A stretch of DNA of 34,899 nt, from positions 1-34,899 of the IMG/VR virus record IMGVR_UViG_3300044608_001602; one strand, written 5' to 3'. Made by a program: the position numbers and the translations under genes. Below are positions 6,000 to 25,599 of the stretch, in pieces. Below the pieces are notes generated by a model. It was not told the origin of the DNA, did not search any database, and worked only from the letters and a program-made list of their open reading frames with translations. Positions within the stretch are counted from its first letter, which is position 1, and the number at the start of each line of letters is the position of its first letter. The DNA comes from a virus.

Positions 6000-6213
6000 C
6001 AAGCGACTCAAGTTTGAACACCAGTGCTCTGCTTGCTCGGGATGGTTCCCGCGAAAGCAAGTGGAAGTCGATCACATCGTCCCTGCGGGTTCGCTGAGAT
6101 CATTCGAGGATATTCCAGGATTCGTACAGCGTTTGTTCTGTGAAGCAGACGGCTTGGTAGTGCTATGCGAGCAGTGCCACCAAGTAAAGACTAAAAGCTC
6201 GATGGAGAAGTAA
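5827..6213 (+). CDS. HNH endonuclease-like protein
   Basis: A 128-residue protein of a family common in phage replication blocks. It begins with a basic segment ending in PRTRAGGEMTEAEFWRFLR, then a helical part, and then a compact zinc HNH unit: CSAC-x7-KQVEVDHIVPAG, and C-x2-C-type VVLCEQCHQ near the end. The DH pair would hold the metal and the catalytic His. It may act as a nicking or resolving nuclease in replication or as a solitary host-attack nuclease. I chose ATG 5827 because family members carry the RTR segment; ATG 5881 with GGGG upstream is an alternative. Confidence 0.75.
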   Translation: MKKKPKSPKVPRTRAGGEMTEAEFWRFLRANLRLASRKWAPISRHVLNACKRVSQSDNKRLKFEHQCSACSGWFPRKQVEVDHIVPAGSLRSFEDIPGFVQRLFCEADGLVVLCEQCHQVKTKSSMEK

Positions 6214-6215
6214 GC

Positions 6216-6479
6216 GTGTCGAACGAATATCAACAAAAAGACAACAATGGAACGTTGTTCAAGAACGATCGCAAGGAGAGCGACAAGCATCCTGACTACA
6301 AAGGAGATGCCATGATCGATGGCAAGCCGATGTGGATCTCAGCTTGGGTCAAAACTGGGAAACGTGGCAAGTTCATGAGCCTGTCCTTCACTCCGAAGCA
6401 GCAAGGCGGAGGCGGTAAGCCTTCGAATCAATCGTCTAGCCAACCCCAAAAGTCGGTTGACGACGACGCTCCATTCTAA
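6216..6479 (+). CDS. small protein with SSB-like acidic C-terminal tip
   Basis: An 87-residue protein starting with GTG (GGAG eight bases upstream) two bases after the HNH stop. Its core, from NGTLFKNDRKESDKHPDYKG to KTGKRGKFMSLSFTPK, is a small beta domain found in phages and plasmids. A glycine/serine-rich linker leads to the end SVDDDAPF. That tip matches the D-D-x-P-F tail by which bacterial SSB recruits its partners, so a role at ssDNA or in docking helicase, primase or nuclease is likely. The placement among replication genes supports this. Confidence 0.7.
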   Translation: MSNEYQQKDNNGTLFKNDRKESDKHPDYKGDAMIDGKPMWISAWVKTGKRGKFMSLSFTPKQQGGGGKPSNQSSSQPQKSVDDDAPF

Positions 6480-23955: not shown

Positions 23956-24639
23956 ATGAAGTTTTCTAAGTTGAAAGCTGTGGCGTTGGTGCTTGTGGTT
24001 TTTTTGCTGTCGGGGCTGAGCTATGGACAAGAATGCGCAAACGGACAATGCTACAGGCAAAGCGGTGTCGCTCGACAAGTGGTCGGAAATACTGTCCGAG
24101 GTACGGCGCAAGCAGTCGATCGAGCCGGCACAATTGCAGTACACGCCACTGGAGCCGTCATTGAACGAGTCGTCGATGCAACGGGACAAATTCTTACTGC
24201 AACAGTCGATACAACCGGCAATGTTGTCTACGCGGCAGCTCGTGTCGCTACAGCCCCGGTTCGAGTAGTTTCGGCTGGTCTTGCTCAGTCAAAAGCAGAG
24301 CGTCAAGCATCCTCGAATCGTCTGTACCACGTTGGCGGCGGGTTCGGCGGTGGCTGTGCTGAGGGCGTTGGGTTCTCGACAAGCTCACCTGATAGAGCGA
24401 TTCGAGCGTGCTGTTACTGGGGCAAATTGCCAGTCCAGGAGATTGGCGTAGCGCGTGGCCGTAACGGATGGTACGCGACCGTGATTTACAGCCAGCGTGC
24501 GACAGGCCCAAGTAGGCAACAAGTAACACAGTACATGCAGTCGAATAACGGCTCTGCACCCCCGGCTAGTTGGTATCCAAACGGCGATCCCTGGAGGAAC
24601 CTGACAGCCAAGGAGGTCAACGAAGCGTTTGGCGACTAG
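23956..24639 (+). CDS. secreted protein with planctomycete-type C-terminal domain
   Basis: A 227-residue protein with a signal peptide (MKFSKLKAVALVLVVFLLSG then LSYGQ). The middle (residues ~30-120) is a Val/Ala/Thr repeat-like stretch (VGNTVRGTAQAVDRAGTI, TATVDTTGNVVYAAARVA). The C terminus has EGVGFSTSSPDRAIRACCYW and VQEIGVARGRNGWYATVIY, a motif I associate with planctomycete exported proteins. It may act in the envelope, for example in surface modification. ATG 23956 follows GGAGG by nine bases. Confidence 0.7.
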   Translation: MKFSKLKAVALVLVVFLLSGLSYGQECANGQCYRQSGVARQVVGNTVRGTAQAVDRAGTIAVHATGAVIERVVDATGQILTATVDTTGNVVYAAARVATAPVRVVSAGLAQSKAERQASSNRLYHVGGGFGGGCAEGVGFSTSSPDRAIRACCYWGKLPVQEIGVARGRNGWYATVIYSQRATGPSRQQVTQYMQSNNGSAPPASWYPNGDPWRNLTAKEVNEAFGD

Positions 24640-24730
24640 CAGTTCATGCTCGGCAGTCGGAGGGAGAGGATCGGCTGTCGAGAGTGTACGGTGCAAAGAG
24701 CGCACGCCGGACAAACGTAACCGGCAACAT

Positions 24731-24797
24731 TGCGGGTGGGCTAGGCCCATCAGAGCCTCATAAGCTCCGACTGCTAGGTGCGATTCCTAGACTCGCA
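24731..24797 (+). tRNA. tRNA-like gene with CAU anticodon and reduced D arm (candidate)
   Basis: A 67-nt fold: acceptor TGCGGGT (24731-24737) with ACTCGCA (24791-24797), 7 bp with one G-U; a tiny GGGC-TAG-GCCC arm; anticodon stem GAGC/GCTC with the 7-nt loop CTCATAA, giving CAT at 24759-24761; variable loop GACTG; and T arm CTAGG-TGCGATT-CCTAG. The loop start T-G instead of T-T, and the short D arm, are unusual. No CCA is encoded. The anticodon region also takes part in a competing 10-bp pairing with 24653-24662. A tRNA search would settle it. Confidence 0.45.
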
Positions 24798-24800
24798 ACT

Positions 24801-24942
24801 GGATCGGCGGCGTGGCGTAACCACGACGCAGTACGGCAAAGCGTCATCTCACAATCGGCGAAACCCTGCTAGGACACGGCGGCAGGGAAAGTTGGTGCCA
24901 TCGTGAAGTGAGAAGCAGCAGGTATACAAACCTGCCCGATCC
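24801..24942 (+). ncRNA. tRNA-like structured RNA element 6
   Basis: A 142-nt element starting three bases after the CAU tRNA-like gene. Closing stem GGATCGG (24801-24807) with CCGATCC (24936-24942); D-arm-like CGTGG-CGTAA-CCACG (24811-24825); middle stems ACGC/GCGT, TCTCAC (24847-24852) with GTGAGA (24908-24913), and CCCTGC (24864-24869) with GCAGGG (24882-24887); and T-arm-like GCAGG-TATACAAA-CCTGC (24918-24935). TTTT follows. Both ends repeat element 1 while the middle is unrelated, as expected for a conserved scaffold with a variable insert. Confidence 0.55.
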
Positions 24943-25080
24943 TTTTGAAGTTAGGAGAGTGTGGCTCAGATCAGTAATGAGATGGGTGGCTGGTCACAGG
25001 TCAGATACGACCCTTAGTTAGCATCATAGTGCGAAAGGCACAGTATACACCCTGGCTTCTTTTTCAAAACAGGAGAGTTT

Positions 25081-25599
25081 ATGATGACATTTCAAAGTTT
25101 GGTGTTTGCGTTTGCTTGCGGCAAAGGCGGCGTGATCGTACTCTCCGCCTTGCTTGCTGTTGCGCTCAGGATCGCCTTGTGGTCGCTCAGTTTGAGGGAC
25201 TTGGCGATTGCTGGCTCGATTGTCTTGGCGTGGCCGACACTCGAGTACGTCTTCCACAGGTGGTTTTTCCACGAATGGTCTTGGACTCCGTTCCGCAAAA
25301 CGCATGATCGGCACCACGACTACCCGACGACCGACACAGGGCTACCCGACTGGTGGGTTATCTGCATGTACTTCGTAAACTCGGCGCTGTTCGCGTTTAC
25401 CACTCCAGGGCTTTATACAGCGCATTGCACGGTGCTTGTGCTTCTGTCGGCATACGAGTTCATCCACTTCTCGTGCCACTGCAACTACACTCCAAAGACT
25501 TGGTGGGGCTGGTCGGTGAGGATCAACCACCTTCAGCATCACAAGTTGCAAAACGCTGACAGGTACGCCATGTCCTTGCCAATCTTCAGGTCGAAATGA
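25081..25599 (+). CDS. fatty-acid hydroxylase / sterol-desaturase-like membrane protein
   Basis: A 172-residue membrane protein with the histidine motifs of the fatty-acid hydroxylase superfamily, which binds two irons: YVFHRWFFHE (residues ~57-66), THDRHHDYP (~74-82), EFIHFSCHCNY near 122 and INHLQHHKLQ near 146. Hydrophobic segments flank the motifs (VIVLSALLAVALRIALW, FVNSALFAF). The enzymes hydroxylate or desaturate lipids, carotenoids or sterols. In a phage this would be an auxiliary metabolic gene acting on host lipids. The ATG follows ACAGGAGAG. It overlaps the next gene as ATGA. Confidence 0.7.
   Translation: MMTFQSLVFAFACGKGGVIVLSALLAVALRIALWSLSLRDLAIAGSIVLAWPTLEYVFHRWFFHEWSWTPFRKTHDRHHDYPTTDTGLPDWWVICMYFVNSALFAFTTPGLYTAHCTVLVLLSAYEFIHFSCHCNYTPKTWWGWSVRINHLQHHKLQNADRYAMSLPIFRSK

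Follow-up and report, generated by a model that had tools for sequence, protein, structure and literature searches.

The locus studied here raises the question of what kind of RNA is encoded by a stretch in which a gene resembling a CAU tRNA stands just before a longer structured element, and whether ten bases upstream of both compete for the tRNA fold. The window, by which we mean the whole stretch of DNA analysed (34.9 kb), is an IMG/VR virus record that encodes a helicase, a terminase large subunit, a portal protein and an Erf-like annealing protein. The tRNA-like gene and the element behind it (element 6) are flanked by an ORF ending at 24639 and a fatty-acid-hydroxylase-like ORF that starts at 25081. 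Neither ARAGORN in its default setting nor Rfam (E ≤ 1) gave a match anywhere in the window. The features are listed below; "cargo" denotes the domain found at the place of the anticodon arm, and R1 is a covariance model described with the element family.

1471–1609, + strand: element 1, same scaffold as element 6, cargo type A (R1 81.4 bits; cargo in eight further contigs)
2330–2435, + strand: element 4, scaffold plan as in element 6, acceptor GGGTCGG (R1 25.7 bits; homologs in L084 and L066)
24649–24682, + strand: leader hairpin CTCGGCAGTCG/CGGCTGTCGAG, a fold that contains 24653–24662; its pairs are changed but kept in contig L044
24653–24662, + strand: GCAGTCGGAG, 5' half of the 10-bp pairing put forward as a switch, regarded as a coincidence
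24731–24797, + strand: aberrant tRNA-like gene with anticodon CAU, short D-loop and T-loop TGCGATT; conserved variants
24765–24774, + strand: CTCCGACTGC, downstream half of the proposed switch, in the anticodon stem and variable loop
24801–24942, + strand: element 6, whole tRNA-scaffold RNA, cargo type B (R1 66.6 bits; homologs in L009, L027 and L054)
24801–24807, + strand: element 6 acceptor 5' strand GGATCGG, pairing with 24936–24942
24811–24825, + strand: element 6 D-arm-like hairpin CGTGG-CGTAA-CCACG (pair change in L054)
24826–24917, + strand: element 6 cargo domain at the place of the anticodon arm (compensatory changes)
24918–24935, + strand: element 6 T-arm-like hairpin GCAGG-TATACAAA-CCTGC
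24936–24942, + strand: element 6 acceptor 3' strand CCGATCC, then TTTT
24947–25059, + strand: element 7, folded RNA closed by 9 bp, of non-tRNA plan, adjoining element 6

Several smaller features accompany these. A three-hairpin leader (24649–24728) precedes the tRNA-like gene and is conserved in L136, L139 and L044, and small GCCG...CGGC hairpins seem to stand before many other elements too. Element 7 measures 113 nt and is followed by TTTTT; its homolog in L092 has a closing stem that is changed yet paired. The window also holds a tRNA-Ser(GGA)-like RNA with irregular arms (1754–1852; acceptor AGGGATT/AGTCCCT), a homolog of which lies directly 5' of an element in L009. A candidate third element at about 2161–2238 (AGATCGG...CCGATCT) was missed by R1 and was not retained.

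The CAU gene and the proposed folding switch

The first-pass annotation of this DNA placed a 67-nt tRNA-like fold with anticodon CAT at 24731–24797, with element 6 three bases further on, and both the sequence and the conserved homologs confirmed it. The fold has an acceptor TGCGGGT/ACTCGCA with one G-U pair, an anticodon loop CTCATAA and a T-arm CTAGG-TGCGATT-CCTAG, and the spacer ACT separates it from element 6. ARAGORN, which the annotation had proposed as a check, gave a divided answer: the default run called no tRNA, whereas relaxed scoring (-ps90) named the 67-mer tRNA-Met(cat).

A homolog search with the T-arm pattern returned 12 contigs, from which L134 was excluded as a chance T-arm in a different tRNA. 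The CAU gene is conserved in the 11 further IMG/VR contigs, mostly with an element behind an ACU spacer, and the tandem unit of CAU gene and element that had been described in the window is thus kept in most of them. A second pattern, independent of acceptor and T-arm, recovered nine of these 11 contigs. In the nine distinct variants, the window included, the anticodon CAU and T33 are invariant, the loop CTCATAA is almost so, 97% of the cloverleaf pairs are formed, and one acceptor pair switches from G-C to A-U. The gene has the features that define a CAU tRNA, i.e. a cloverleaf, a 7-nt anticodon loop, U33 and the anticodon CAU. The canonical elbow (G18 G19 in the D-loop, TTC in the T-loop) was absent from all nine variants; the usual elbow contact is missing because the D-loop has only three or four bases (TAG(Y) or AAGT) and the T-loop is TGCGATT. 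These results indicate that 24731–24797 is a true, though aberrant, tRNA belonging to the array of element 6. It may be a reduced Met or Ile tRNA with anticodon CAU, or a decoy for an anticodon nuclease.

It had further been claimed that GCAGTCGGAG (24653–24662) and CTCCGACTGC (24765–24774) form a perfect 10-bp complement and that the transcript could therefore switch folds. The complement is exact, one segment being the reverse complement of the other. A transcript that alternates between the tRNA fold and this long-range helix could control maturation of the tRNA-like RNA, and in the window the two folds come out equal in predicted energy (native –61.1, alternative –60.9 kcal/mol), with a probability of 0.68 for the 10-bp pairing. 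However, L136 and L139, close relatives of the window, are the only homologs with the complement, and their intact acceptor lowers the predicted pairing probability to 0.004; in the folding model, the high value in the window is apparently due to one C-to-U change in its acceptor. The complement is broken in L044 (probability 0) and reaches at most 7 bases in the remaining homologs. Furthermore, such complements occur at chance frequency: the window has seven 10-bp complementary pairs within 150 nt, and 20 shuffled versions averaged 5.3. The upstream half is also part of a separate conserved hairpin of 11–12 bp, which L044 keeps via changed pairs. An RNA switch calls for two mutually exclusive folds that are both conserved. 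Of the grounds for refutation that the annotation had itself named, half is borne out: homologs retain the tRNA fold, which favours the tRNA, and do not retain the switch pairing, which speaks against the switch. The complement is probably a chance feature of the window's lineage and not a conserved switch, and a transcript that regulates its maturation in this way is very improbable.

The scaffold of element 6 and its relatives

The first 26 bases of element 6 had been reported to equal those of element 1 (at 1471), and AGGTGCGATTCCT to be common to the CAU gene and element 1; the former identity is exact and the latter was also verified. Five other viral contigs contain the exact 26-mer, in every case forming the 5' end of a closed element, and since it recurs in the same kind of element, element 6 is not a chance fold. 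From 5' to 3', family members begin with one strand of a 7-bp acceptor and the bases C8 and G9; then come a D-arm-like hairpin, whose sequence is GCGTG-GTGGGAA-CACGC, CGTGG-CGTAA-CCACG or a variant of these, and a domain that varies between members, before a T-arm (5 bp, loop of 7 or 8 bases) and the second acceptor strand. Most members are 66–182 nt long.

A scan with a 3'-end pattern gave at least 117 stretches. Among 138 copies, 113 have a perfect 7-bp acceptor yet receive no ARAGORN tRNA call, although a few of these 113, with canonical D-arms, are a separate and more tRNA-like group. The covariance model R1, built from 52 copies, found elements 1, 6 and 4 in the window at 81.4, 66.6 and 25.7 bits. 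Its matches numbered 128 in 100 loci, a few of them ordinary tRNAs, and 1 to 8 per record in 18 whole records. A loosened D-arm core also matched coding sequence (L010, L012–L020), where R1 gave at most 19.6 bits, and these were chance matches. The searches indicate that the design of the element recurs in well over a hundred uncultured viruses. In Rfam searches no family member reached a cut-off (YrlA at 25.9 bits, SNORA71, and tmRNA at 16.9 bits, all far below). We found no account of the family in the open-access papers searched, and within that scope it is apparently a previously undescribed class.

The 97 flanking proteins that were compared are mostly from replication and recombination genes, and no neighbour gene common to family members was found among them. 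BLAST against cultured phages returned nothing for the window array; two family members gave matches that were either of T-arm size or due to chance. A search for hosts with two patterns had no match in 84,980 GTDB genomes; both patterns included acceptor letters, so that other scaffolds could escape. Similarity of the terminase extended to Vibrio and Acinetobacter phages, at about 25% identity, and names no host.

To avoid circularity, IMG/VR was also scanned without bias, using the D-arm motif alone (CGGCGTGGTGGGAACACGC), which makes the D-arm invariant by selection and the scan uninformative on the D-arm itself. Of 57 distinct copies, 43 close with a complementary acceptor directly behind the T-arm (lengths 93–245 nt), against a mean of 2.1 (0–8) when acceptors were shuffled. 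The acceptors are diverse (e.g. GTTAGTG/CACTAAC, GCCCCGG/CCGGGGC, CCCCGGG/CCCGGGG and GGCATGG/CCATGCC). Across 38 distinct scaffolds, 98.8% of the cells pair and two-sided changes occur at 11 pairs, namely all seven of the acceptor and four of the five of the T-stem. The covariation score of the scaffold (n = 38) was 0.561 against 0.129 in shuffled versions (0/500), and slid versions gave at most 0.08; the set compared contains only copies that passed the acceptor and T-arm filter, which by the shuffled-acceptor control few pass by chance. As in tRNA, the 7-bp acceptor of element 6 and its kin is directly stacked on a 5-bp T-arm.

The loops also vary together. GG-type D-loops (GTGGGAA and similar) associate with canonical T-loops TTCRAAT, and non-GG D-loops with T-loops TGCGATT, TGAAAAT, TAGCCAAT or TGTAATT (11/2 vs 4/27; Fisher p about 1e-5, an optimistic value, since related rows were counted and the D-loop classes were chosen with the data in view). 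Such an association is what would be expected of a tRNA-like elbow contact. An encoded CCA at positions 74–76 was found in 0 of the 43 D-arm copies. The TTTT that stands 3' of many elements could also be terminator-like.

The domain in place of the anticodon arm

No anticodon stem-loop was found between the D- and T-arms of element 6 and its kin, either by ARAGORN, whose intron mode scarcely or not at all outdid shuffled cargo, or in the 66-nt members, which have one hairpin only between acceptor and T-arm. In its usual mode ARAGORN called a tRNA in 0 of the 43 D-arm copies. When introns were allowed, it called 30 of the 43 and proposed an anticodon for each, as might be expected of tRNAs with an intron or a long arm that still decode after their insert has been cut out or folded aside. 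However, 19–27 copies were still called with shuffled cargo, and at lower stringency (relaxed scoring) the calls were 42 with native and 42–43 with shuffled cargo. Near-identical copies also received different anticodons (gga in L147 and cag in L149; tgc in L193 and cgt in L195), and the 66-nt members have no room for an insert. We regard tRNAs of this kind as quite unlikely here, and element 6 and its kin are very probably not decoding tRNAs.

The cargo folds more stably than its shuffled versions in 41 of the 43 copies (mean z –1.0). Type A, the cargo of element 1, recurs in the eight other contigs listed, and type B, that of element 6, in L009, L027 and L054, with a consensus fold in which five pairs are changed on both sides. 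In addition, single cargo types are found in different acceptor scaffolds, with compensatory changes, as in the set L030, L194 and L218 and the set L044, L116 and L185, and across contigs the cargo of element 1 occurs with four different T-loops. The mosaic pattern first seen between elements of the window is real and, because cargo types occur in varied scaffolds and with varied T-loops, is a general property of the family. These comparisons indicate that cargo and scaffold are exchanged independently and that no anticodon is kept. The helices of acceptor, T-arm and cargo very likely exist as RNA structure. In L143 (8888–9029) and L136 (3276–3388), a D-arm or T-arm of what looks like a further tRNA lies within the cargo, which gives the impression of tRNAs nested in the scaffold.

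Decaying phage tRNA genes with random insertions, devoid of function, might likewise show odd elbows, lack anticodon arms and be missed by tRNA finders. Yet the acceptor, T-stem and cargo carry compensatory changes, identical cargo types stand in many contigs and in different scaffolds, and the cargo is more stable than shuffled sequence, all of which makes mere degeneration hardly credible.

The best reading, to which we give about two chances in three, takes element 6 and its kin as natural scaffolds of tRNA type that carry an effector cargo: the acceptor stem, the D-arm-like hairpin and the T-arm are kept, and the cargo stands where the anticodon arm would be. Host tRNA machinery would excise each unit from a common transcript and stabilise it, through RNase P at the 5' end, 3' trimming and perhaps CCA addition and T-loop modification. 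Function would lie in the cargo, which most likely binds a protein or a second RNA. Among the neighbours of elements 1, 4 and 6, which are ordinary replication and recombination genes, there was no candidate for a cargo partner.

Alternatively, the tRNA-like ends, together with the CAU anticodon loop, could be the active part, binding host tRNA enzymes or antiphage anticodon nucleases, with the cargo serving for spacing or stabilisation. A role of phage tRNAs against anticodon nucleases has been proposed (PMC10264068), which would suit a decoy, as would the loop CTCATAA, nearly unchanged in all variants of the CAU gene. However, the cargo is conserved by type and covaries beyond the needs of a spacer, and most members of the family lack an anticodon loop; we consider a decoy role rather unlikely.

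Known RNAs of similar layout

The scaffold with an effector cargo can be compared with several known systems. The natural elements resemble in layout an engineered tRNA scaffold, in which the acceptor, T- and D-arms are retained and a foreign structured RNA replaces the anticodon stem-loop and is protected in the cell (PMC3753655), and by analogy they probably work like it. The engineered version is a laboratory construct, whereas the natural elements have a strongly conserved D-arm sequence and an evolved cargo. Like the family, tmRNA (RF00023) has a tRNA-like acceptor and T-arm and a long non-tRNA domain replacing the anticodon arm; the family differs in its size (66–182 nt in most members) and its strong D-arm-like hairpin, and for the window elements and those D-arm copies that were tested, neither Rfam nor ARAGORN gave a match to tmRNA. 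Phage-encoded tRNAs share arrays and acceptor/T-arm modules with the elements, and the CAU gene is one such tRNA. Elements 1, 4 and 6 differ from them in that the anticodon arm is absent and the elbows are altered.

YrlA, a bacterial Y RNA and tRNA mimic, is a modular RNA of 90–150 nt; its tRNA-like part is similar to acceptor, D and T arms, and its 5' and 3' ends form a Ro-binding stem (PMC8394870). Its topology is the reverse of that of the family, whose ends pair as the acceptor stem and whose additional domain takes the anticodon position. The YrlA model (RF02553) gave no match in the window at E ≤ 1, and its best score elsewhere, the 25.9 bits given above, compares with a cut-off of 69. 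A gene for Ro60 (TROVE and vWA domains) was found in two of the 19 records searched, both of them large phage records that carry family members; the TROVE gene was absent from the window record, which may be a fragment, and from 16 of the 18 other records searched. Directly upstream of Ro60, each of the two records has a tandem pair of tRNA-like RNAs whose acceptors differ but whose cargo core (TTTTTTACTATGTACG...GATTAAC) is the same:

L232: 5907–6024 and about 6212–6340
L233: 5302–5419 and the next copy

These are candidate phage Y RNAs on a scaffold of tRNA topology. Ro60 is the likely cargo-binding protein in these two records, the sole case with an evident candidate partner, and its position directly behind RNAs that share a cargo favours the view that the cargo binds protein.

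RNA C of phage T4 (species 1 RNA, rnaC; AF158101, 71046–70908) is a 139-nt RNA encoded among the clustered tRNA genes; its annotation is that of a small, stable RNA. It has a canonical T-arm, CCGGG-TTCGAAT-CCCGG, immediately adjoined by an acceptor-like strand whose seven positions pair with the 5' end. This acceptor has two U-U mismatches in T4; in Yersinia phage phiR1-RT all seven positions pair, and four pairs are changed on both sides among the RNA C sequences of five phages. Like the family, RNA C has an acceptor and T-arm that enclose a large structured domain other than an anticodon arm; unlike the family, it is without a D-arm-like hairpin behind the acceptor, and its cargo is different. 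R1 scored T4 RNA C at 13.5 bits (E 0.01 in 3.3 kb), so that descent of RNA C and the element family from a common ancestor is only a possibility. According to a review of post-transcriptional control in T4 (PMC3014915), what RNAC and RNAD do is unknown. RNA D (L180, 1554–1672), which adjoins RNA C, is without the acceptor/T-arm layout.

We see about even odds that these RNAs represent a widespread phage class, in which tRNA scaffolds with exchangeable effector domains at the anticodon position are arrayed with normal and reduced tRNAs, and which covers both T4 RNA C and the Ro60-linked phage Y RNAs. If so, phages would produce and shield regulatory RNAs by way of the host's tRNA maturation. 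The family provides T4 RNA C with well over 100 comparison sequences of similar layout, a predicted fold and swappable cargo types, and it makes testable whether phages send structured RNAs through host tRNA maturation for protection. Gene finders overlook these RNAs, as the absence of ARAGORN calls among the 43 unbiased copies illustrates, and no Rfam cut-off was reached where searched.

A different group of tRNA-like RNAs, 160–170 nt long, was observed in L041 (7759–7920), L056 (1316–1475), L073 (5907–6071), L085, L109 and L125. Its members have canonical D- and T-arms, an enlarged anticodon region and ACCA immediately behind the acceptor, possibly an encoded CCA.
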